Below, piece by piece: positions 21,447 to 39,372 of a stretch of DNA of 64,000 nt. The notes beneath the pieces are model-generated. The model had not been told where the DNA came from, ran no database searches, and was given only the letters and a program-made list of their open reading frames with translations. Both the position numbers and the translations under genes were made by a program. The stretch's first letter is position 1. Every line of letters starts with the position of its first letter. Origin of the DNA: Anaerocolumna cellulosilytica (GTDB lineage: Bacteria; Bacillota; Clostridia; Lachnospirales; Lachnospiraceae); assembly GCF_014218335.1 (NCBI RefSeq), contig NZ_AP023367.1:1551501-1615500 (forward strand). The letters are read 5' to 3'.

Positions 21447-21689
21447 TAATGCTCAAATTACGATAGCCCTTCGAACTCGGAACGATTTATGTGTTGGTCC
21501 ATATTGACTGCGTCGCTGCTCGTTAGATGCAACGATATTAGATCACTTATACAATCAATATTGTTATAGACGCTTTATATAAAAAATCGAATAAACTTTT
21601 AAGGCAGGAGTATGCCCTTTTTTTGTTAAGCGGAATTACTGCAAGAGGTCGATCGCCACCGCTTGTCCTTCGTTTTAACTCAATTTTGA
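21447..21689. other. Spacer without recognisable gene
   Basis: Short AT-rich stretch between the terminator and an IS1182 remnant. It has no ORF above 60 codons. The right part (from ~21600) may already belong to the decayed insertion sequence. Confidence 0.4.
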
Positions 21690-22100
21690 AAATTAGGAGT
21701 GCAAGCATATATCAGAGACCTGTTCTATCAGCTCGTCCGGCGGCGTGCTCTCATGGGAGAATTATCAAAAGAAACGGTTTTTATTGATGGAACGAAGCTG
21801 GAGTCATGTGCAAATAAAATACTTTATCTGGACGCTGGTACCATTTCTAAAGCATATGGAAGAAGAACTGAGATTGCGCTATCCAAGTGTGACAGCTGAT
21901 TCTTGTTACGAAAGCAAGGAAGGGTACAACTATCTGAAAGAATATAATCAGATTCCGTATATCAAGCCCCAGACCTATGAGAAGTGGAAAAAACGCAGTT
22001 TCAAGAAAGATATCAGTAAACGGGAAAACATGGATTATGACAGAGAGGCAGACACCTATATCTACCAAGGTGGTAAGAAGCTAAGCCCATTATTTTGCGA
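21690..22100 (+). pseudogene. IS1182-family transposase remnant
   Basis: One frame starts with YIRDLFYQLVRRRALMGELSKETVFIDGTKLESCANK, the first catalytic Asp region of IS1182 (DUF772) transposases. After ~21820 the similarity jumps to another frame with ADSCYESKEGYNYLKEYNQIPYIKPQTYEKWKKR and KKDISKRENMDYD, the later catalytic segment. The N-terminus, the part between, and the C-terminus are missing. It marks the left edge of the AT-rich restriction segment. Confidence 0.7.
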
Positions 22101-22231
22101 CACCCTCTTAGCTAATGTATTTGTTTTAAAAAAAAGCTAAAAAAGCAATATTTATAAATTGAATTATGGTCTCAACTATGATAAACTTACTTGTAAAATG
22201 AAATGGTTGCCTAAATTAAGGAAGTGTGAAA

Positions 22232-24346
22232 ATGAAAACTACTAAACAGATAGAAAGCACATATAATATTACTCGTCAAACTTTAGATAATTGGATGAGA
22301 GATAACTTAATATCAAAGCCAATTAAAGATTATAAAGGTTGGTACCAATGGGATGAAACTAATGAAGGTCAGATTCAATTTTTTATAGAGTCAAAAAAAG
22401 AAAATAAACATAAACTAGCAGAACAACTTGAAACACTTAAAATTACAAACAGAAGATATTTGGGTAGCAAACAAAAAATGCTAGATTTCATTTGGAAAGT
22501 AATTTCTGAAAATACAAGCGGAGTAAACACTGTTGCTGATGTATTCGGTGGAACGGGTTCAGTTGCAGAGATGTTTAGGCAAAAAGGAAAGAACATAATA
22601 GTAAACGATATTCTATACTCTAACTATTTGTCTTTTTTAACATGGTTTGGAACCGAAAAAGTAAACTATAAAAAAATCAAGCAAATACTCTCAGAATTAA
22701 ATAAACTTGAACCTACTAAAGAAAATTATGTTTCAGAGCATTTTGGCGATAAGTATTTTACATTGGAAAATGCTAAAAAGATAGGGGAAATTCGTGAAAG
22801 AATAGAAAACTATAAAGATATTAATGAACGTGAAAAAGCTTTTCTACTAACATCACTTCTTTATGCTATGGATAAAGTTGCTAATACTGTAGGGCATTAC
22901 GATGCGTATCGGCAAAAAATGGATAGTACAATGCCACTAAGATTAAGACTTCCAGAACTAAATGAAAATAAAAAAAATGAAGTATATAATAGTGATGCTA
23001 ATAGACTGGTAAGAGGTATAATTGCAGATTTAGTTTATATAGATACTCCTTATAATTCACGCCAATATGGAGACGCATATCATTTACTTGAAAACATAAT
23101 GGAATGGAAAAAACCAGAAGTTATAGGTAAAGCTATGAAGATGGTGGATAGAAGTAAAGTTAAAAGTGATTATTGCACAGTTAAAGCTCCACAAGCCTTT
23201 GAAGATTTAATTCAAGGAATAGATAGTAAGTACATTCTAGTGTCTTATAATAATATGGCTGAAAAGGGCGCAGGGCGTTCTAATGCCAAAATCTCAAATG
23301 AAGAGATAATTGAAACTCTTAAGAAAAAAGGGAAAGTTATTATTTTTGAAACAGACTTTAATGTATATACAACAGGTAAGACAAAGATAGAGAATCATAA
23401 AGAACTTCTTTATTTATGTGAAGTCAAAAAAAAAACTAATAAAAATTATTATGTTCAATCAGCATTAAATTATACTGGTGGAAAATATAAGCTTTTGCCA
23501 CAGATAGAGCCATTATTTCCTAAAGAGTATAATAACTTTATTGACTTGTTTGCAGGAGGAGCAAACGTTGGGGTAAATGCAAAGCCTAAAGAAAAGATTT
23601 ATATAAATGAAATCAAGTACTATTTAGTTGAACTCTATAAGTTTTTTAAAAGTATAGATATTGATATTCTTTTATGTAAAATAGAAACTCTCATTGATGA
23701 GTACGGACTTAGCAATACAAAGCAATATGGTTATGCTCACTATAATTCAGATAGTGGTAAAGGTGTAGGTGAATATAACAAAGAACCTTTTAAGAAATTG
23801 AAAACAGATTATAATAATGGAAAATTTACAGGAGATGATAAAAACTTAGTATTTTACATTCTCATAGTTTTTGGATTTAATAATCAAATTAGGTTCAACT
23901 CAAAGGGAGAGTATAATCTTCCGCAAGGGAAAAGAGATTTTAATGATAAAATGGTTACTAAGTTAAAAACTTTCCATAAAGCTATAAAAGATAATAAGAT
24001 AGAATTTTCAAATCTTGATTTTAGAGAATTTAGAAACTATTCAAAAGATGATTTCATTTATGTGGATCCACCTTATAGAATATCAACTGCGAGTTATAAT
24101 GAACTTGGGGGGTGGACTCTTCAAGATGATTTAGATTTACTCGAATATCTAGATAAAGCAAATAAAAAAGGTGTGAAATTTGCACTTAGTAATGTAATAG
24201 AGCATAAAGGCGAAGAAAATAATGTACTTATTGAATGGGCAAAAAAATACAATATCCACGAACTTAATTTTAATTATAATAATTCTAACTACCAATCAAA
24301 AGCTAAAGGTAATGTTACAAAAGAAGTTTTAATTACAAATTATTGA
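22232..24346 (+). CDS. Double-domain N6-adenine DNA methyltransferase (M.FokI-like) with N-terminal HTH
   Basis: About 704 residues from the ATG at 22232 (AAGGAAG 7 bases before; an in-frame GTG at 22226 is too close). Residues 1-35 look like a helix-turn-helix (TKQIESTYNITRQTLDNWMRDNLI). Domain 1: RRYLGSKQKML, SAM motif DVFGGTGSVAEMF (~103-115), catalytic DTPYN (~271). Domain 2: NYTGGKYKLLPQI, SAM motif DLFAGGANVGVN (~438-450), catalytic DPPY (~612). Two fused D12-class units are the layout of M.FokI and M.StsI, in which each methylates one strand of an asymmetric site. It protects host DNA from the nuclease at 24413. AT-richer than the flanking chromosome, so probably acquired. Confidence 0.85.
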   Translation: MKTTKQIESTYNITRQTLDNWMRDNLISKPIKDYKGWYQWDETNEGQIQFFIESKKENKHKLAEQLETLKITNRRYLGSKQKMLDFIWKVISENTSGVNTVADVFGGTGSVAEMFRQKGKNIIVNDILYSNYLSFLTWFGTEKVNYKKIKQILSELNKLEPTKENYVSEHFGDKYFTLENAKKIGEIRERIENYKDINEREKAFLLTSLLYAMDKVANTVGHYDAYRQKMDSTMPLRLRLPELNENKKNEVYNSDANRLVRGIIADLVYIDTPYNSRQYGDAYHLLENIMEWKKPEVIGKAMKMVDRSKVKSDYCTVKAPQAFEDLIQGIDSKYILVSYNNMAEKGAGRSNAKISNEEIIETLKKKGKVIIFETDFNVYTTGKTKIENHKELLYLCEVKKKTNKNYYVQSALNYTGGKYKLLPQIEPLFPKEYNNFIDLFAGGANVGVNAKPKEKIYINEIKYYLVELYKFFKSIDIDILLCKIETLIDEYGLSNTKQYGYAHYNSDSGKGVGEYNKEPFKKLKTDYNNGKFTGDDKNLVFYILIVFGFNNQIRFNSKGEYNLPQGKRDFNDKMVTKLKTFHKAIKDNKIEFSNLDFREFRNYSKDDFIYVDPPYRISTASYNELGGWTLQDDLDLLEYLDKANKKGVKFALSNVIEHKGEENNVLIEWAKKYNIHELNFNYNNSNYQSKAKGNVTKEVLITNY

Positions 24347-24349
24347 CTT

Positions 24350-24384
24350 AAAAGCTACCAATAGGGTGGCTTTTTTGCTATAAT
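24350..24384 (+). terminator. Terminator, then -10 box, between methyltransferase and nuclease genes
   Basis: AAGCTACC and GGTGGCTT pair (one T-G) and are followed by a T-run (24371-24376). TATAAT follows directly at 24379-24384; no convincing -35 box is seen. The nuclease gene would then depend on leaky termination or its own weak promoter, which delays nuclease relative to methylase. Confidence 0.6.
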
Positions 24385-24412
24385 TATACTATTGAAATAG
24401 GGGGAAGTAACC

Positions 24413-26413
24413 ATGAAATTAAAAGACATAAGTTCGGTTTTCAATATGGGTGATACAAGCTTTAGAAGAAAGACTTTACTTGAAGATTATAAAGTTTTAT
24501 TACCACTTCTAATAGTACATAAAGAGTTATATCCTACTTGGGAAAAAAATAATGAAGCACAAGCAGAGTATTTTAAAACCGTTGTTAATAATACAAAATT
24601 TTTTACAGAGGCGAGTTTAGAGGCAAATCCAGCAAAACGTGGAAGAACTTTAACAAATGCTCTTATAAAGCCAGGTTTAATTAATGAAAAGAGAGAACTT
24701 AGCGAAGTAGCTTTAAACTGGGTTAAGAATAGTAATTCAAGAGAAGATAAACTTGAAAAATTAATGTCTTTATATACTGATAACTTAGTTTTTTTTAGAC
24801 AATTTTATAAGTTGAGAGTTTATGAGCCTAATGGTTTAAAATATTTTTATCCTTTTAGAGTTGCATTAGAATTTTTATCAAAATACAAAGATGTAAGAGA
24901 AAATGATTTATTATTAATTTTACACTTAGTTTCTCCAGAAATTGGAGAAGAAAAGCTCCATGAAATTATAAATGTTTATCAAAAGGTTGTGGATGAAGAA
25001 ATTACGTTTGAAAAATTCTTTGATAATTATTTAGATAATATGAATGATGAGAAAACACTTGCTATTGAGAAAGCTAGAAATATTTTCTCGCAAGAAAATC
25101 TAAATGAAGATGAGTTTTGGGAGTTGTTTAAGAATAACAAAAGTAAGCAATTTGCATATTTAGATTTTTATAAAGCACTTCAAGAATATAGAAATACAAA
25201 ATCATACGATAGCTTAAAGGCTTTAAATGATATTTCTAAAAATCCTGCAATTAAAAAGGCTTTTGGATTTAATCAATTACCATTTAAATTCCCAAGAACC
25301 AATAAATTTACTTCAGAAGAGTTTGAGAAATTAAATGTTAATCATAAATTGCTTTCAGATAAAAAAGAAGATTTTTATATTCAATTTACCTTATCTAAAA
25401 AGGCAGATTTAGTAAGAGAATACTCTGATATGACGAAGAGAACCTTTGCACTTTCAGGAATAATCAGTTTTGATAAAGGTCTTGTTAATTTAACTCAGCC
25501 TTGGATAATCGAAAGCTTACTAAAAGTTGCGGGGAATGAGATTAATTTAACAGGTATAGAAGATATTAAAAATTACGAAGGAAACATAGAAAGTGATTTT
25601 TATAAAGATATTACTTTAGCTGTTATTCTAAACTTATCAGCAGAACAAGTACTAGATATTGAAAATATCATTAAACAAAAGTTCGGAGTCACAGATGTTA
25701 CTACTCTTGAATATCAACTTGAGCAAGAACAAGAAAATAGATTTAGGAAAGTCATTGAAAAAGACTTTCCAAGAAAAACTGTGTCAGAACTTCTTAGATT
25801 ATTTAGCGATAGAAGTATAGAAAATGACAGAGAAATTCAGAGTATTGTAACAGATTCAGCGACAGTTCCTACAATCTTTGAATATGTATTAGCAATAGCA
25901 TGGTTCTACATTGCAGAGAAAAAATTTTCTTTAAGGAAAAGTGTAAATCTATCACTTGATGGCAATTTCAAACCACTTACACATGCAGTTGGCGGAGATG
26001 GAGATATTGTTATAGAATTTGATGATGTAACTTTAATGCTTGAGGCTACATTAATGGATATAAACTCTCAAAAACGTGGAGAACTTGAACCAGTAATTAG
26101 ACATACGGCAAACTTAGCAATTAGAGATAATAAAAGAGTATTAACTATATTTGTAGCAGATAAGCTTGATTCAAATGTAATCAATATATTTAGAGCAAGT
26201 TCATTTATTGAATTTGAAAGTACACAGCAACGTGATAAAACTATAAAAGGTATTGATATATTTGCCCTTAGAATTTTGGAACTTGTAACTGCTCTTGAAA
26301 AAAAAATTAGCCAATCACGTATAATTGAAGTGGTTGAAAAATATTATAAATCTTCTCCTGTGACAATATATAATGGTTGGAGAGAAGAAATAGTAGAGCA
26401 AATTTTTAGTTAA
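24413..26413 (+). CDS. AlwI-family Type IIS restriction endonuclease
   Basis: A 666-residue protein. The C-terminal nuclease part has VPTIFEYVLAIAWFYI (Glu ~490), LSLDGNFKPLTHAVGGDGDIVIEF (Asp ~531) and LMLEATLMD (Glu ~544). The spacing Glu-41-Asp-13-Glu resembles the catalytic set I recall for Nt.BspD6I/AlwI, and LEAT..D plus HA-GG-D-D are hallmarks of this family. The N-terminal ~400 residues would bind DNA. Family enzymes cut a few bases beside a short asymmetric site, often one strand at a time. GGGGGAAG ribosome site. It is paired with the two-domain methylase before it and a third gene after it. Confidence 0.8.
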   Translation: MKLKDISSVFNMGDTSFRRKTLLEDYKVLLPLLIVHKELYPTWEKNNEAQAEYFKTVVNNTKFFTEASLEANPAKRGRTLTNALIKPGLINEKRELSEVALNWVKNSNSREDKLEKLMSLYTDNLVFFRQFYKLRVYEPNGLKYFYPFRVALEFLSKYKDVRENDLLLILHLVSPEIGEEKLHEIINVYQKVVDEEITFEKFFDNYLDNMNDEKTLAIEKARNIFSQENLNEDEFWELFKNNKSKQFAYLDFYKALQEYRNTKSYDSLKALNDISKNPAIKKAFGFNQLPFKFPRTNKFTSEEFEKLNVNHKLLSDKKEDFYIQFTLSKKADLVREYSDMTKRTFALSGIISFDKGLVNLTQPWIIESLLKVAGNEINLTGIEDIKNYEGNIESDFYKDITLAVILNLSAEQVLDIENIIKQKFGVTDVTTLEYQLEQEQENRFRKVIEKDFPRKTVSELLRLFSDRSIENDREIQSIVTDSATVPTIFEYVLAIAWFYIAEKKFSLRKSVNLSLDGNFKPLTHAVGGDGDIVIEFDDVTLMLEATLMDINSQKRGELEPVIRHTANLAIRDNKRVLTIFVADKLDSNVINIFRASSFIEFESTQQRDKTIKGIDIFALRILELVTALEKKISQSRIIEVVEKYYKSSPVTIYNGWREEIVEQIFS

Positions 26414-26447
26414 AATTAAAAACATTTATTAAGATAGGAGATTAAAA

Positions 26448-27254
26448 TTGATAGAACAATATTGGAGTGTTGGAACTGCACTAAGAAACCCTAATAGAGT
26501 AATAAGATGTTTAGATATCATTGATACATTCGCAGGAATAACTTGGACGGAAACAACACAATTAGATTATTATATTGAGCGCATTTTAAGAGGTGAAGTT
26601 AATCCACAAAATATTTCAGTAGGACGATTAAGAGTATTATCTCAAGTTGATAAAAGAGATTATATGTATTCAAATTACGAAGATGCGCCTATGCGAGGTA
26701 GAGTTGTTGGAAGTTTGTTTGAAAAATTGGGTTTAATAACAACATTTCCGACTATAAATCTGACGCCATTAGCTAAAAATGGAGTTAAAGGTATTATTAC
26801 ACAACAAGAGATGATTAAAGAGGCTTTAATAAATTGGGATGTAGGAAATGGACATAACTTATGTAGTCCGTTAGTGCTTACTATATATTTAATTTTAGTT
26901 GTAAATAATAGATATGCGATAGGTAGCAATGTAGGAATGACTGGTATTACAGTAGGCGAATTTAGGCAATTTGTAATGGAAATTGATGATTATTCGCAGA
27001 TAGATAATGCAGTTAATAATATACTTTCAAATAGAAGAGCATTGAGTGGTTACTTTTGGGAAGATTCAACTGAAAAAGATTATAAAGATAATAATTTAAA
27101 ATACTTTAAAGCAACTGATTTAGTTCTTACTAGATATCCTATTTCTTCAAGTGACAATGTTTTAATAGATTTAGACTATACTCAAAGAGCAGAATTAAAT
27201 AGAATTATAAATACTTATATTCCATCAGCTGTTAGAAGTATATGCGGTTTATAG
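26448..27254 (+). CDS. AlwI/Nt.BspD6I N-terminal-like protein without nuclease domain
   Basis: 268 residues, TTG start with ATAGGAG 7 bases upstream, 34 bases after the nuclease gene. The order YWSVGTALRNPNRVIRCLDIIDTFAG, then RVVGSLFEKLGLI..TPLAKNGV, then IKEALINWD and NLCSPLVLTIYLILVV, then VGEFRQFVMEIDD..AVNNILSNR, runs parallel to the DNA-recognition half of Nt.BspD6I-type nickases (a start such as W-V-x-x-x-x-R-x-P, later NPLVFVLSLL and DEIAEEI). No Asp/Glu catalytic cluster is present. Likely a separate specificity or partner subunit of the restriction enzyme; a regulator is the alternative. Family similarity was judged by eye. Confidence 0.5.
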   Translation: MIEQYWSVGTALRNPNRVIRCLDIIDTFAGITWTETTQLDYYIERILRGEVNPQNISVGRLRVLSQVDKRDYMYSNYEDAPMRGRVVGSLFEKLGLITTFPTINLTPLAKNGVKGIITQQEMIKEALINWDVGNGHNLCSPLVLTIYLILVVNNRYAIGSNVGMTGITVGEFRQFVMEIDDYSQIDNAVNNILSNRRALSGYFWEDSTEKDYKDNNLKYFKATDLVLTRYPISSSDNVLIDLDYTQRAELNRIINTYIPSAVRSICGL

Positions 27255-27327
27255 TTTATTAGTGGAAGTAGTTATTTTCAATCTGTGTGAGGATGAAGAA
27301 GGTGTAGGTGGATCTATATTATAAAAG

Positions 27328-28339
27328 TGGACACGATTAGTAACCATATAATACAATTAAGTAGACATAAAAAGGAGGTATCTACTCATGTCCACAAGTA
27401 AAACTGGAACAAGGTATGACGAGGACTTCAAACGTACTCTCGTTAACCTTTATCAATCTGGCGGTAAAACACAGGCTGCTCTCTGTAAAGAATACGGCGT
27501 TTCCCTAACCGCTCTTACCCGTTGAATCAAGCAATACTCAACCGTCAAAACGGATGATGGCGAGGTCTTGACCGCCAAACAAGTGAAGGATCTTCAAAAA
27601 TGCAATGCTCAGCTTAAGGAGGAATTCCTCATACTAAAAAAAGCGATTGCCATCTTCACGCCACACTCAAGCAACGATTAGATGCTGTTCATAAGCATCG
27701 TTTTCAGCATGACATAAAAATTCTTTGCAGTGTATTAGGTGTCAACAGAAGTACCTATTATAAGCATTTCCACTCAGTACCTGCTGACCGCACCAAAGAA
27801 AATCAGGAGATAGCCAAACAAATTCTCCAAATCTACGCCGATTATAACAAGCGTCTTGGTGCATATAAGATTACTTATGTCCTCCAGCGTGATCATGGCA
27901 TTCACATCAGTGTTGGACGAGTGTACCGCCTGATGAAAACACTTCAATTACCACGAATGTCAACGGTGAAGCCATATCGTAACTACCGGCATAAAGATAC
28001 TGGCAATTGCACCAATCATCTCCATCAGGAGTTCAACCAGAAATCCCCTGACATTGTCTGGGCAAGTGATTTCACTTATATTAAAGTTTCTGGGAAATGG
28101 TATTATCTCTGTATTGTAATGGATCTATCTTCTTGCAAAATCATTTCCTGGAACATTTCAGCAAAACCTGATGTCACGCTGGTAATAACTGCATTCAAAA
28201 AAGCTTATGATAAAAGGAAATACCCTACTGGGCTCATGTCCACTCTGATCGGGGATCTCAATATACTGCATTTTCATTCAGACAGTTATTGAATTCTCTT
28301 AATGTAGTGCAGTCATTTTCTAAGAAAGGTTATCCCTAA
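27328..28339 (+). pseudogene. IS3-family (IS150-like) element remnant
   Basis: The left end begins with TGGACACGATT, and AAGGAGG precedes orfA (ATG 27388). OrfA has the helix-turn-helix (YDEDFKRTLVNLYQSGGKTQAALCKEYGVSLTALTR) but TGA replaces the next Trp codon at 27523-27525. An A7 slippery run near 27640 fits the usual orfA/orfB frameshift site. OrfB keeps HTH_21 (GAYKITYVLQRDHGIHISVGRVYRLMK) and the first catalytic Asp (VWASDFTYIK). One base is missing near 28239 before the second (HSDRG), and the sequence ends before the catalytic Glu. It was cut where the DUF2971 fragment begins. Confidence 0.8.
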
Positions 28340-29110: not shown

Positions 29111-30420
29111 TCTGAGATCTCATCCATTCATACACTTTACTTTTGAGGATTTGTAATCTCTGCGGGTAAGTTAATTAAATTCTCCACAAACAGAGCCATC
29201 AGGCTCGTAAGTGCATTTGTTAAATCCATGTCCTGTATATCATCGCGAACATGTAAAATAATTCGCCATAGGTTTTCTGGTCATTTTGATTTCTTCGTAT
29301 CCATTCCATGATTATATATCTGGTAAATACGATTGTTGTATGGCTTACTTTGTCATTAGAACTACGGCTTTGAAATTCAGTACCCAGTTACATTAAAGAT
29401 TTAGATGCTTTGAAGAATACATCGATTGACCACCTGTTGCCGTAAATTCGAACAATTTCGGCATCGGATAAGCTACAGTCTGTGCTGAGCAAATACAAAC
29501 ATTCACTTTTCCAGTTGCGGTTACGAATAACTACGATTTTTACCGGGATTCTCTCCTTGGTAGTTACAACCAGAGAACCAAAAATATTTGCTGCATATTC
29601 ATGTGATACAAATTTCCGGAGTTCGGGTAATGTATAGGCTTTACCCCGGAAGAAATACCTCTGTTTTAATTGCTTTACCATACCGATTGCATCAATTCCT
29701 GTTTTTAAGATTTCCTTCAGCATCGGTTCTGTAGTAAACCAGGTGTCCATCAGTACGTAGTCAGCTTTGATTCCAGAGGCTAATGCCCTCTGAATCAGCA
29801 AAATAGCAGCAGCGGTCTTTTTTATTAGGCTTTCTGTACGACTTATATATCCGTTAGTCCGGTGGTCAATATCAGAAGAAATTTCCTGATAGCGATTGTC
29901 CTTGTTTGCCGAAGAAAGCATGTTAAATCCGACAGGTATAAAACTGTAACTGTCTGACCATCCAAGTGTTAAAAGTGTAAACCCCCTTTGGAATTTATGG
30001 CTTACATGGTCATAGACCTTTGCAAGTAGTTAAACATTTTTACTACGATTGCGTTGTATAACGGAATCATCCAGAAAACTAAGACCTTAACACGTTCCGG
30101 TCTGGTCAATTCATCAAAAGCGGAAGTAACCTTTGAGGCTAAAAGCAGCAAAAATTCTTTCAGTTGTAGGATGTTTCGTTCAGGAAACGATAATAAGTAT
30201 TCTTAGAAACAGCCTGGTCTTTATGTTTAGAATTCAGGAATCGAAATAAATTCTTTCCCTGAAATACTAACAGAAGCATAAATTGGAACACCTCAAACAG
30301 GAATTCCACAGGATTTTGTGACATTGGACTTGCGTAACAGTTTCCCTAAGTGAAGATTTCTGATTGCATCAGAAAATTGATTCTGGGTATTTTCAATTGA
30401 GTCGTTTTGGTATATCATAA
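29110..30420 (-). pseudogene. IS4-type transposase pseudogene with several frameshifts
   Basis: Read on the minus strand, the start (MIYQNDSIENTQNQFSDAIRNLHLGKLL) lies at ~30418. A frame change follows near 30300 and more interruptions near 30050-30200. A clean 177-residue piece (29921-29388) holds ADYVLMDTWFTTEPM, GMVKQLKQRYF and LSTDCSLSDAEIVRIYGNRWSIDVFFKASKS, the IS4-group DDE core with its Y-(2)-R-(3)-E-like segment (here YGNRWSID). The C-terminal part (29110-29388) is again out of frame. Inactive. Confidence 0.7.
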
Positions 30421-30930
30421 GATTAGTACCTTTCTTTATATGGTATGGATTGTGGTGATCTTATTATACCAAAGTTTGGTGCTATTTTTATGTCAATACA
30501 CCCCAATTTATGAAATTGTTTTGCTTGATTTATCAAGCGTTACACCCGCCATTACAGGTGGGAAAATATTAATAGTAAATAGAAAGAGCCTTGAAAGTAG
30601 TATTTCGGGGCTTTTTTTATGTTTGATGAAAATTATATCATTTTTAATGCTTAACACTTTCGGTTTTTAACTAAAAGTTTTTAATGTTCTTTATTAGAAC
30701 CATATTGTTATTATTTTAAGATAAAATGTATAGGTATTGTACATGCCAATTTATAACAACGGAAATATAGAGTGATTCAGGATATCAAACATGTAAATCT
30801 TATTATAGTAATCGTGGAGTGAGGTAAACTTTTGTTTGCAAAGACTTAAAAGTATAAGCATAATATTATAGAATGCTCTAAATTAATGCTAAATTAAAAT
30901 CAACAATTATGGTGAAAGGAAAGAAACAGA
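30421..30930. other. Spacer; possible terminator only
   Basis: No convincing gene. Around 30585-30620 an imperfect hairpin is followed by seven T (GGGGCTTTTTTT), perhaps an old terminator. The left ~100 bases may be the IS4 end. Nothing else can be supported. Confidence 0.3.
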
Positions 30931-31206
30931 AAGGAATCAATACTTAAAAAACTATATTACGGCTATTTTAACCGTGAACAATCTATTCATAATAATAATC
31001 CAGAATACCGAAATATCAATAATAAGGAAATTAATGTTATGGAAGAATTATTAGAAAAGAAAGTTTCGGACGAAGACTATAAAGAGATTATAAAACTGAT
31101 GGAATTACATACTGAATCTGCATCACTTGAAACAGTGGATGCTTTTGAATGTGGTTTTAGGTTTGGGGCATTAATTATTATAGATCTTTTAAAAGGTAAT
31201 GAATGA
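30931..31206 (+). pseudogene. DUF6809-family gene copy lacking a start codon
   Basis: Ninety-one codons are open and parallel the intact copy at 31806 (KESILKKLYYGYFNREQ..., NPEYRNIN, KKVSDEDYKEIIKLMELHTES, FECGFRFGALIII). At the start position AAG stands in place of ATG (30931-30933), with the same GAAAGGAAAGAA leader. Translation could begin only at the internal ATG near 31039, giving ~56 residues. The duplicated block includes ~35 bases of upstream DNA. Confidence 0.65.
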
Positions 31207-31805: not shown

Positions 31806-32084
31806 ATGGAGTCAATTCTCAAAAAACTATATTACAGCTATCTTAACCGAGAACAATATTTTTATGATAAAAACCCGGAATACCGTAATATCAATGAAAA
31901 GACAATTAAGGCTATGGAAACATTAGAGAAGAGAGTTTCAGACGAAGACTATAAAACCATATTGAAGCTGATGGAATTACATACTGAATCTGTAGCAATT
32001 GAGACAGCGGATGCTTTTGAATGTGGTTTTAAGCAAGGGGCATTAATCATGCTAGAAGTTCTAAAAGATGAAAAAACGAGATAA
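31806..32084 (+). CDS. DUF6809-family protein
   Basis: A 92-residue cytoplasmic protein, GAAAGGAAAG ribosome site. The pattern fits DUF6809: an N-terminal ILKKLYYSYL, a middle NPEYRNINEKTIKAMETLEKRV, a helix ILKLMELHTESVAIETADAFECGFKQGALIMLEVL. These proteins are frequent in Lachnospiraceae, often inside mobile or prophage-like DNA, with unknown role. Its promoter overlaps operators of the divergent RHH gene. A degenerate duplicate lies 870 bases upstream. Confidence 0.7.
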   Translation: MESILKKLYYSYLNREQYFYDKNPEYRNINEKTIKAMETLEKRVSDEDYKTILKLMELHTESVAIETADAFECGFKQGALIMLEVLKDEKTR

Positions 32085-37305: not shown

Positions 37306-39372
37306 ATGGATAAAAGAAAAAAGGTGTGGTTTGTTAACTTAATATTGAGTATTACAGGGCTGGCCATTATCTTAACAGTGATTACCTTTATATCGCAGAA
37401 CAAAAAGAATGAGGCAAAACCTGTCAAGCAGCCATCTTCTGGTGTAATTGACTCGGCTGAACTAGAGAAGCTGCTTAATCAGTTCATGGATGAAAAGATA
37501 GGTGTGGATAAGGAAGCTCCAGGAGCTGCTGTGGCGGTTGTACAAGATGGACGTATTGTATTGAGTAAGGGTTATGGTTATGCCGACCTGAACAAAAATA
37601 CAGCAGTTGACCCAAAGCAGACCTTATTCCGAATTGGTTCAGTGACGAAGACATTCACGGCAGCAGCAATCATGCAATTGGTTGAGGAAGGGAAGCTGGA
37701 CCTTTATAGGGATATTCAAGCATATCTTGATGGAATTGAGTTTAACAATCCATTTGCAGAACCTGTAACGATACATCATCTTCTTACGCATACCTCAGGG
37801 TTTCAGGTAACAACTGAAACTATGCAGGACATCTATGAAGACCTGAGTACCTTTATATCACTGAAAGAATATATTGATAAAAACAAACCTCCGGTTATAC
37901 GCGAGCCCGGAACTTCTTATATGTATGATAATTACGCATATAATCTGCTTGGATTCATCATTGGGAATGTCACCGGAATGTCATACCAGCAGTATATGGA
38001 GGAGTATATACTTAAACCATTGAAAATGAATAATACACATATGATTATCACAGAACAGGCTTTGATGCACTTAGCTGTCGGATATGGAAGCGATGACAAT
38101 CCACTTGCACCATATACTTTGACTCCGGCAGAAGCTCCTGACGGAGGGATGCTTACCACTGCCGAGGATGTGGCCCACTTTATGATAGCCCAGTTGAATG
38201 GAGGCATATATGATGGTAACTATTTGTGGAGTGAAGACTCCTTAAAGTTAATGCAACAGTACCAATCAAGCATCTCTTCCGAGTATCCAGACGCCTCATA
38301 CGGATATGAAAATCTGTTGGAGTCTGGCAAACATTATGGGCAATGGATTATTGGCAAAGGAGGAGATGTACCTGGCTATAGCTCTTTTATCTTAATGTTT
38401 CCTAAGGAAAAATTCGGAATATTTATTGCTTTTAACAAACAGGTTTCGTCAGCTTATGTCGCAAGAGAATGGAATCAGCTGTTTATAGAGCAGTATCTTC
38501 CCGTTCCGTCTACCGCACCTCCCACTTACCTTAAATCGTCCCAACAGCAATTGAAGCGGTTTGAGGGGACATATTCAGACCTTAGGATTAAGATTATGCT
38601 GACGAAGGTTACGGCAACGGGCAATGGAGAGCTCACAGTAGAGGATGACTTCACTGGAGTTCACAAATTAAAGCAAAAGGAAGAGTTGGTCTTTGAAGAT
38701 GAGAATGGAGATTTACTGGCATTCAAAGAAGACAAATCCGGTAATATAAACTATCTCAAATACGGAAATCCGGTCAGCTATGCCGGCAAATCTACGATTA
38801 TTTTCCAGGATGTCTCTGCAAATAGTGTATATGAGCCATATATTAGCAACTTAAAGGCTATGGGGATTGTTTACGGGGCATCAAATGGAAAGTATCACCC
38901 GGAGCAGCCATTGACAAGGGCACAGTTAGCCGCAATGCTTGTCAGGATGATGGGGATTAACCTGGTTCAAACGAGACCGCAATTTATTGATACGGAAGGA
39001 ACATGGGCTGAGCGCCAAGTAGAAACCGCTGTTGCTGCCGGCCTGATGAAAGGAATGGATGGACAGCATTTTGAGCCGGATAAGGTATTGACCCGCCAAG
39101 AGGTTGCAGCCATTCTTGTTCCAGTGTTCCAAACAGCGGTGCCTGATTTTCTTTCATTGTTTCAGTCTGAAAAGGTGAAACTCTCAGAAAAACCCACTTC
39201 TGAAGTTGCCGATAGTATAAAAGTTCTGGTTGCTGCCGGTATCACGGGTCCGGATACGGTCGTCAATGAGAATGGGACAGTTGTTTTTCGGGGAACAGAA
39301 CTGTTGACGCGGCAAGAAGCGGCGGTTTGGTTCAATAATTTTATTCGTAAAGTGGTTCTTGGTATTGAATAA
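37306..39372 (+). CDS. Beta-lactamase-type serine hydrolase with C-terminal SLH repeats
   Basis: A 688-residue exported protein. An N-terminal membrane segment (~8-28) is followed by a class C beta-lactamase/D-alanyl peptidase domain: Ser112-Val-Thr-Lys115 nucleophile motif (FRIGSVTKTFTAAAIMQL), YDNYAYNLLG (Tyr-x-Asn) and HYGQWIIGKGGDVPGYSS near the third motif. A short domain (~400-490) leads to SLH repeats: VYEPYISNLKAMGIVYG..LTRAQLAAMLVRM, then WAERQVETAVAAGLMKGM..LTRQEVAAIL, and a diverged third. SLH repeats tether it to cell-wall polymers, so it probably acts on peptidoglycan or peptides outside the cell. AAGGAG ribosome site; under the MarR gene. Confidence 0.82.
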   Translation: MDKRKKVWFVNLILSITGLAIILTVITFISQNKKNEAKPVKQPSSGVIDSAELEKLLNQFMDEKIGVDKEAPGAAVAVVQDGRIVLSKGYGYADLNKNTAVDPKQTLFRIGSVTKTFTAAAIMQLVEEGKLDLYRDIQAYLDGIEFNNPFAEPVTIHHLLTHTSGFQVTTETMQDIYEDLSTFISLKEYIDKNKPPVIREPGTSYMYDNYAYNLLGFIIGNVTGMSYQQYMEEYILKPLKMNNTHMIITEQALMHLAVGYGSDDNPLAPYTLTPAEAPDGGMLTTAEDVAHFMIAQLNGGIYDGNYLWSEDSLKLMQQYQSSISSEYPDASYGYENLLESGKHYGQWIIGKGGDVPGYSSFILMFPKEKFGIFIAFNKQVSSAYVAREWNQLFIEQYLPVPSTAPPTYLKSSQQQLKRFEGTYSDLRIKIMLTKVTATGNGELTVEDDFTGVHKLKQKEELVFEDENGDLLAFKEDKSGNINYLKYGNPVSYAGKSTIIFQDVSANSVYEPYISNLKAMGIVYGASNGKYHPEQPLTRAQLAAMLVRMMGINLVQTRPQFIDTEGTWAERQVETAVAAGLMKGMDGQHFEPDKVLTRQEVAAILVPVFQTAVPDFLSLFQSEKVKLSEKPTSEVADSIKVLVAAGITGPDTVVNENGTVVFRGTELLTRQEAAVWFNNFIRKVVLGIE

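Follow-up and report, generated by a model that had tools for sequence, protein, structure and literature searches.

Within the window, the whole 64,000-nucleotide stretch of Anaerocolumna cellulosilytica DNA that was analysed, three genes (MT, RE and SP) follow one another on the plus strand, at the positions where the original prediction had placed three open reading frames, and are followed by an insertion sequence (IS), as set out here:

22232..24346, plus strand: MT, fused double D12 N6-adenine DNA methyltransferase, 704 aa from ATG (an alternative open reading frame start at GTG 22226 gives 22226-24346 and 706 aa)
24413..26413, plus strand: RE, AlwI-family Type IIS restriction endonuclease, 666 aa
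26436..26440, plus strand: AGGAG motif resembling a ribosome-binding site, 7 nt 5' of the SP start, read directly
26448..27254, plus strand: SP, stand-alone AlwI-family recognition domain, 268 aa, without linker and without nuclease
27255..27308, no strand: 54 bp separating the SP stop from the IS; full-length relatives run on into the linker at this point
27309..28337, plus strand: IS element, which we take to be IS3-like, with a right end lacking about 260 bp and a broken reading frame

The RE stop and the SP start are separated by 34 nt, with the TTG start codon of SP sitting behind AGGAG and corresponding to the homologous start of the SP relatives, and the block common to the three genes has a GC content of 27–30%, against 37–41% on its left side. 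Promoter and terminator scans gave results no better than shuffled sequences, and no RNA elements were found at the gathering threshold.

The double D12 organisation predicted for MT was recovered in a Pfam profile search (PF02086, E = 1.5e-62, two stretches), with the C-terminal half matching TIGR00571 (dam) and MT matching the PADLOC model MTase_II PDLC03292 (E = 1.7e-203); presumably, one half acts on each strand. An added HTH, also proposed for MT, is visible by eye as the N-terminal segment TRQTLDNWM, with similar starts in the related loci L002, L003 and L004, but no significant Pfam HTH match was obtained, the best having an E-value of 0.17. Between the halves of MT and their counterparts elsewhere, identity is 56–68% for plasmid systems of S. 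aureus, E. faecium and L. lactis, 46–60% for an L. plantarum system, 47–52% for the methyltransferases of loci L041 and L043, and 46–54% for RE-type systems of the same family as the host (L070, L071, L080).

The assignment of RE to the AlwI-family nucleases, with an acidic catalytic set, is confirmed by matches to PF09491 (RE_AlwI; E = 3.4e-34, residues 89–616, profile positions 5–430 of 441) and to the PADLOC model REase_II PDLC03557 (E = 4.6e-158), by alignment of its C-terminal part with the nuclease of N.BspD6I (Nt.BspD6I), and by the invariance of E490, D531, E544, E557 and E559 across a 12-row alignment of RE-type proteins, RE included. The Nt.BspD6I mutants E418A and D456A are named in PDB titles, and RE carries FEY and DGDI where it is aligned to Nt.BspD6I, a correspondence at the level of motifs. 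The N-terminal part of RE (residues 10–197) is homologous to the SP-family profile (hhalign probability 97%, E = 1.2e-10). Recognition half, nuclease half and acidic set are accordingly all found in RE, as in an AlwI-family Type IIS endonuclease; with both halves in hand, there is no obvious need for an outside recognition domain, and we infer that RE would be active alone.

An AlwI-family endonuclease adjoining a fused double adenine methyltransferase is the composition of SfaNI-like systems, and on the strength of sequence comparison MT and RE probably form such a system with the site GCATC/GATGC. In the available portions of the literature, SfaNI of Enterococcus faecalis is given as the prototype for this site (PMC9465063), the AlwI-family R.Cal02329 system of Caldicellulosiruptor is described as recognising GCATC (PMC9799307), and S. 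xylosus TMW 2.1324 is reported to carry an AlwI-family REase gene of 2121 bp and an MTase gene of 2127 bp assigned to GCATC/GATGC, with no third gene listed beside the pair in that portion of the report (PMC10030836). The same portion describes almost full methylation of both strands by the S. xylosus MTase alone, expressed from a strong promoter in E. coli (PMC10030836). The window thus shares with SfaNI-like systems a REase and predicted adenine methylation of both GCATC/GATGC strands, and, so far as these partial accounts extend, membership of the S. xylosus and Caldicellulosiruptor enzymes in the AlwI family and a single methyltransferase gene of ~2.1 kb in S. xylosus and in MT; the likeness of the S. 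xylosus pair to MT and RE is one of family and gene sizes, not of compared sequences, and SP is an extra gene by which the window differs from these systems. The methyltransferase scoring highest against MT belongs to plasmid locus L038, whose two genes measure 2106 and 2133 bp. GCATC is not depleted in the window, with 107 occurrences found against 108 expected, and site counts therefore do not strengthen the assignment.

For SP, resemblance to the recognition half of AlwI and Nt.BspD6I, without a nuclease, had been predicted, and both homology and a structure model agree with this. SP matches PF09491 with an E-value of 1.9e-8 (34.2 bits, cut-off 23.1; best stretch 2–112 of 441; 25.8 bits in the genome-wide search), its residues 5–197 match a PADLOC nicking-endonuclease model (E = 4.2e-9), and the C-terminal nuclease domain of PF09491 members is absent; at E ≤ 0.001, RE and SP are the sole PF09491 matches in the whole genome. 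Structure prediction, proposed at the outset as a check, yielded a model with the fold and segment order of the Nt.BspD6I recognition half, apparently a whole domain, in a model that leans on the alignment of the relatives; the end of SP corresponds to residue 277 of Nt.BspD6I, a domain border lying before the linker and nuclease. The second-best fold match is the recognition domain of BpuJI, itself part of a full-length enzyme, with 12% identity over the structural alignment. The SP frame is without internal stops, and only in this frame does the codon usage agree with that of MT and RE (−3.75 log-likelihood per codon, against −4.85 and −4.87). After SP, tblastn with eight full-length relatives identified no AlwI nuclease sequence, the only matches in the window falling inside RE, and the 54 bp following the SP stop contain no convincing AlwI homology in any frame, by eye or by tblastn. 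SP is probably still able to fold and may bind DNA.

When the SP alignment was used to scan 84,980 species genomes, by two peptide patterns only and therefore not exhaustively, 11 loci emerged, at 21–26% identity. Ten of these hold large enzymes (frames of 587–675 aa, among them two nearly identical pairs) in which SP matches the N-terminal part, and the remaining one, L046, is a 211-aa fragment. Closest to SP are two enzymes of spirochaete MAGs, those of L041 (587 aa, E = 1e-14) and L043 (588 aa, E = 3e-14). SP is placed as their sister in both trees that were built (support 87/96 and 90/88), with an exact sister group that is uncertain because of the very long SP branch (3.2–4.2 changes per column, against 0.09–0.16 for L041/L043), a situation for which the tree program issues a warning. 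Unlike SP, the enzymes of L041 and L043 are full-length, and each is the sole REase seen at its locus; their methyltransferases fall in the MT clade. As the methyltransferases of L041/L043 and of RE-type systems are similarly close to MT, two kinds of AlwI enzyme are served by methyltransferases of a single clade; the window carries one of each kind, the second without its nuclease. This shared clade also suggests that the parent enzyme of SP probably read the same site as MT and RE. These comparisons point to SP as the N-terminal half of a further AlwI-family enzyme with an evolutionary history of its own.

Closer counterparts of SP were sought within the family and beyond. No SP match was present in 298 other family genomes or in 14 congeners (only 4 of the 15 congeneric genomes, counting that of the host, satisfy limits of 90% completeness and 5% contamination). 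Profile searches recovered other AlwI enzymes within the family (18 of 396 further genomes) and the class (4 of 290), none with a score near that of SP itself. Comparison with plasmids gave two records at 27% identity, both inside full-length enzymes; SP was absent from phage records, and searches of viral contigs with SP, the SP-relative alignment and RE returned nothing useful. The divergence of SP is also evident column by column: in a nine-row alignment, SP differs at 29 of the 61 columns invariant in its eight relatives, where each other row differs at 0–4 of its 32–36 such columns, a contrast inflated by SP being the most distant row. With one outgroup, 54 unique changes were assigned to SP and 20 to L041, and over nine outgroup rows (two of nearly the same sequence) the counts were 37–62 and 12–20, an excess of 2.5–3.4 times, from which it follows that SP had diverged long before the IS arrived, either in an unsampled, fast-evolving full-length lineage or as a stand-alone protein.

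Had SP served as a functional third subunit that divides the work in a new way, as was proposed, the gene trio should recur in other genomes, and no such co-conservation was found. RE matched 67 plasmid records by tblastn (coverage reached 80% or more in 39) and 17 of 299 family genomes (own included), with near full-length matches in 11 of the 16 others, at 12 loci. Eighteen RE-type loci (L002–L004, L035, L038, L070–L081 and L086), five of which (L002, L003, L004, L035 and L038) are opened plasmid loci, were screened with the SP-family profile, and an SP-like gene was found in none; RE-type enzymes aside, nothing scored below E = 0.1, the leftovers standing at 0.18 and 0.61. Sixteen of these loci have at least 800 bp downstream and are full tests, the contigs of L072 and L081 ending less than 500 bp after RE. 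A 150-aa gene following the RE-type gene in L002 (the L. lactis locus) and a 327-aa gene beside a second AlwI enzyme in L035 (Priestia), the latter judged from its sequence, were considered as partners and rejected for lack of any SP match. The species-genome scan with RE alone returned nothing useful. A two-gene system without SP is common.

The account that we hold to be rather probable is that MT and RE constitute an ordinary Type IIS system, probably of the SfaNI kind, and that SP is the IS-truncated remnant of a second AlwI-family enzyme. MT would methylate adenine on each strand of GCATC/GATGC, and a site left unmethylated would be read by the N-terminal half of RE and cut nearby by its C-terminal nuclease half. 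Into the gene of the second AlwI-family endonuclease, near codon 287, an IS would have inserted, and a deletion out of this IS would have removed its right end together with the nuclease half, leaving SP as the surviving recognition half of another lineage, unable to cut; RE would function independently of SP, which we infer to be dispensable. Truncation is supported by the position of the IS 54 bp after the SP stop, by its missing right end, and by its 97% identity to six sister copies elsewhere in the genome, each of ~1.29 kb (a distance between copies, not a measured insertion age). Full-length relatives of the L041 type require ~900 more bases beyond SP, and similar breakage at other loci gives further support: in L064 a related gene is split by a frameshift, and in L036 a short gene for the nuclease part adjoins IS257. 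Neither an empty site nor an intact sister copy was found, which speaks against it.

Several features argue against this history, namely the termination of SP at a domain border, its native-looking start with a Shine-Dalgarno motif, the lack of internal stops, the codon fit and the whole-domain model, as well as the fact that the IS does not interrupt the SP frame, which stops 54 bp before it, and the lack of clear AlwI homology in those 54 bp; the excess of change in SP relative to L041 argues against a young truncation in particular, and could mean a long separate life. An open frame is, however, no proof of function, since under simulated neutral substitution of 2–5%, of the order of the distance between IS copies, the SP frame remained open with a probability of 0.40–0.10. 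Should SP be such a remnant, the locus would illustrate the loss of one of two restriction enzymes that differed in lineage but probably recognised the same site and shared a single methyltransferase.

The same intact features invite the reading, possible but unlikely, that SP is retained as a nuclease-dead binder of the same site, competing with RE (and MT) for GCATC and damping cutting, for example on entry into a new cell. Its frame, start, ribosome-binding-site-like motif and predicted fold are all preserved, its end coincides with the domain border, the methyltransferases accompanying its parent enzyme belong to the clade of MT, which makes a common site likely, and the recognition domain of BpuJI was solved alone on cognate DNA (title of PDB entry 2vla). 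Weighing against retention are the absence of SP from the 18 other RE-type loci and from the congeners, and its changes at 29 of 61 invariant columns, in part expected of the most distant row. Simple autoregulation through a promoter site was rejected as a role for SP, since no GCATC occurs in 21531–22900, a span covering the 701 bp 5' of the MT start codon (ATG) and the beginning of the gene. A broader version, in which SP is a maintained nuclease-dead competitor setting the balance of cutting and protection, and two other loci, L082 and L046, exemplify a recognition module re-used in trans, is less likely again. Were SP in use, it would be a dominant-negative restriction subunit that occurs in nature, a form of control of Type II systems not found described in the open-licence PMC literature, and would offer an isolated AlwI-family recognition domain for engineering; in the same literature (titles and abstract starts, among the matches listed), no nuclease-less AlwI-family protein was found.

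That RE instead requires SP for specificity or assembly, the two forming a new heterodimer, is very unlikely. SP adjoins RE in one low-GC, operon-like block, and its homologue in BspD6I is the recognition half of the large subunit; in that enzyme, by the available part of the report, the large subunit recognises and nicks and the small one only cuts (PMC4081073). SP is, however, the opposite half to that small subunit and was rejected as its counterpart: compared with R.BspD6I/Nt.BspD6I (and BtsI and BsrDI), SP resembles the Nt.BspD6I recognition half and RE aligns with its nuclease, but the small protein here holds recognition only and RE holds both parts. Neither a small nuclease subunit without recognition nor subunit genes co-occurring across genomes (0 of 18 RE-type loci), as would befit a Type IIT or BspD6I-like enzyme, was found. 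With a recognition half of its own in RE, relatives lacking SP at 18 of 18 loci, and no third gene listed for the S. xylosus pair in the available part of the report (of which the MTase was the component assayed; PMC10030836), a requirement of RE for SP was set aside, and a three-subunit arrangement is not supported. Scarcely credible is a sequencing or assembly error that conceals a nuclease half belonging to one gene with SP, as the full-length relatives might suggest: tblastn with the eight relatives detects no such half downstream, where the sequence is that of an IS with six other copies in the genome.

It is very doubtful, finally, that AlwI recognition halves are a separable module working in trans with other nucleases, as SP, L082 and L046 might together suggest. 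In L082, two D12 methyltransferase genes precede an N-terminal half of 321 aa, which overlaps the end of the second; 52 nt further on lie genes for an McrB-like protein of 724 aa and an McrC-like protein of 350 aa, names that are our own reading, a 452-aa part of the McrB-like protein having given no Pfam match; in L046, the 211-aa N-terminal half overlaps a PLDc_2 protein by one base. Each case is single and the neighbours differ, and L046 ends within the second subdomain, on a contig with a repeated gene start, so may be a product of chance or assembly. The L082 methyltransferases, only 26% identical to MT, place that locus on another branch. Both loci are explicable by an inserted defence gene replacing the nuclease half, and may represent the same kind of breakage as is proposed for SP, with other defence genes having moved in.

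Mobile-element remains may lie on both flanks of the restriction block, which comprises the methyltransferase, the AlwI-family endonuclease and the nuclease-less recognition half, because a transposase-like fragment, presumably IS1182-like on the basis of a motif, is found upstream of the methyltransferase. A Pfam search of this fragment returned no match. This fragment and further features of the window are as follows:

21745-22140, transposase-like fragment, immediately upstream of the methyltransferase
29388-29921 (-), partial DDE transposase (PF04693, E 3e-5; PF01609, E 1e-3)
30916-31206 and 31806-32084, DUF6809 proteins, two adjacent paralogues
37306-39372, beta-lactamase-fold protein with S-layer homology domains (PF00144, a family that also takes in penicillin-binding serine hydrolases)

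AlwI-family genes occur in other settings in three comparison loci from other genomes, two of which carry an N-terminal piece:

L082, 3394-4359 (-), nuclease-less AlwI N-terminal recognition half, 321 aa
L082, 1167-3341 and 118-1170, McrB-like and McrC-like genes, immediately after the recognition half
L046, 6001-7562, AlwI N-terminal piece with a PLD-domain protein, archaeal contig

L082 belongs to another genus within Lachnospiraceae; two D12 methyltransferases precede its recognition half, and EVE-like and AAA segments were assigned to the McrB-like gene by reading the sequence. The 308-aa PLD-domain protein and 211-aa AlwI piece of L046 share one base, with a repeated ksgA-like gene start (labelled by reading) flanking the cluster on either side. 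The Priestia megaterium plasmid L035 carries two divergently oriented AlwI-family enzymes, adjoining a single fused methyltransferase and a 327-aa gene.
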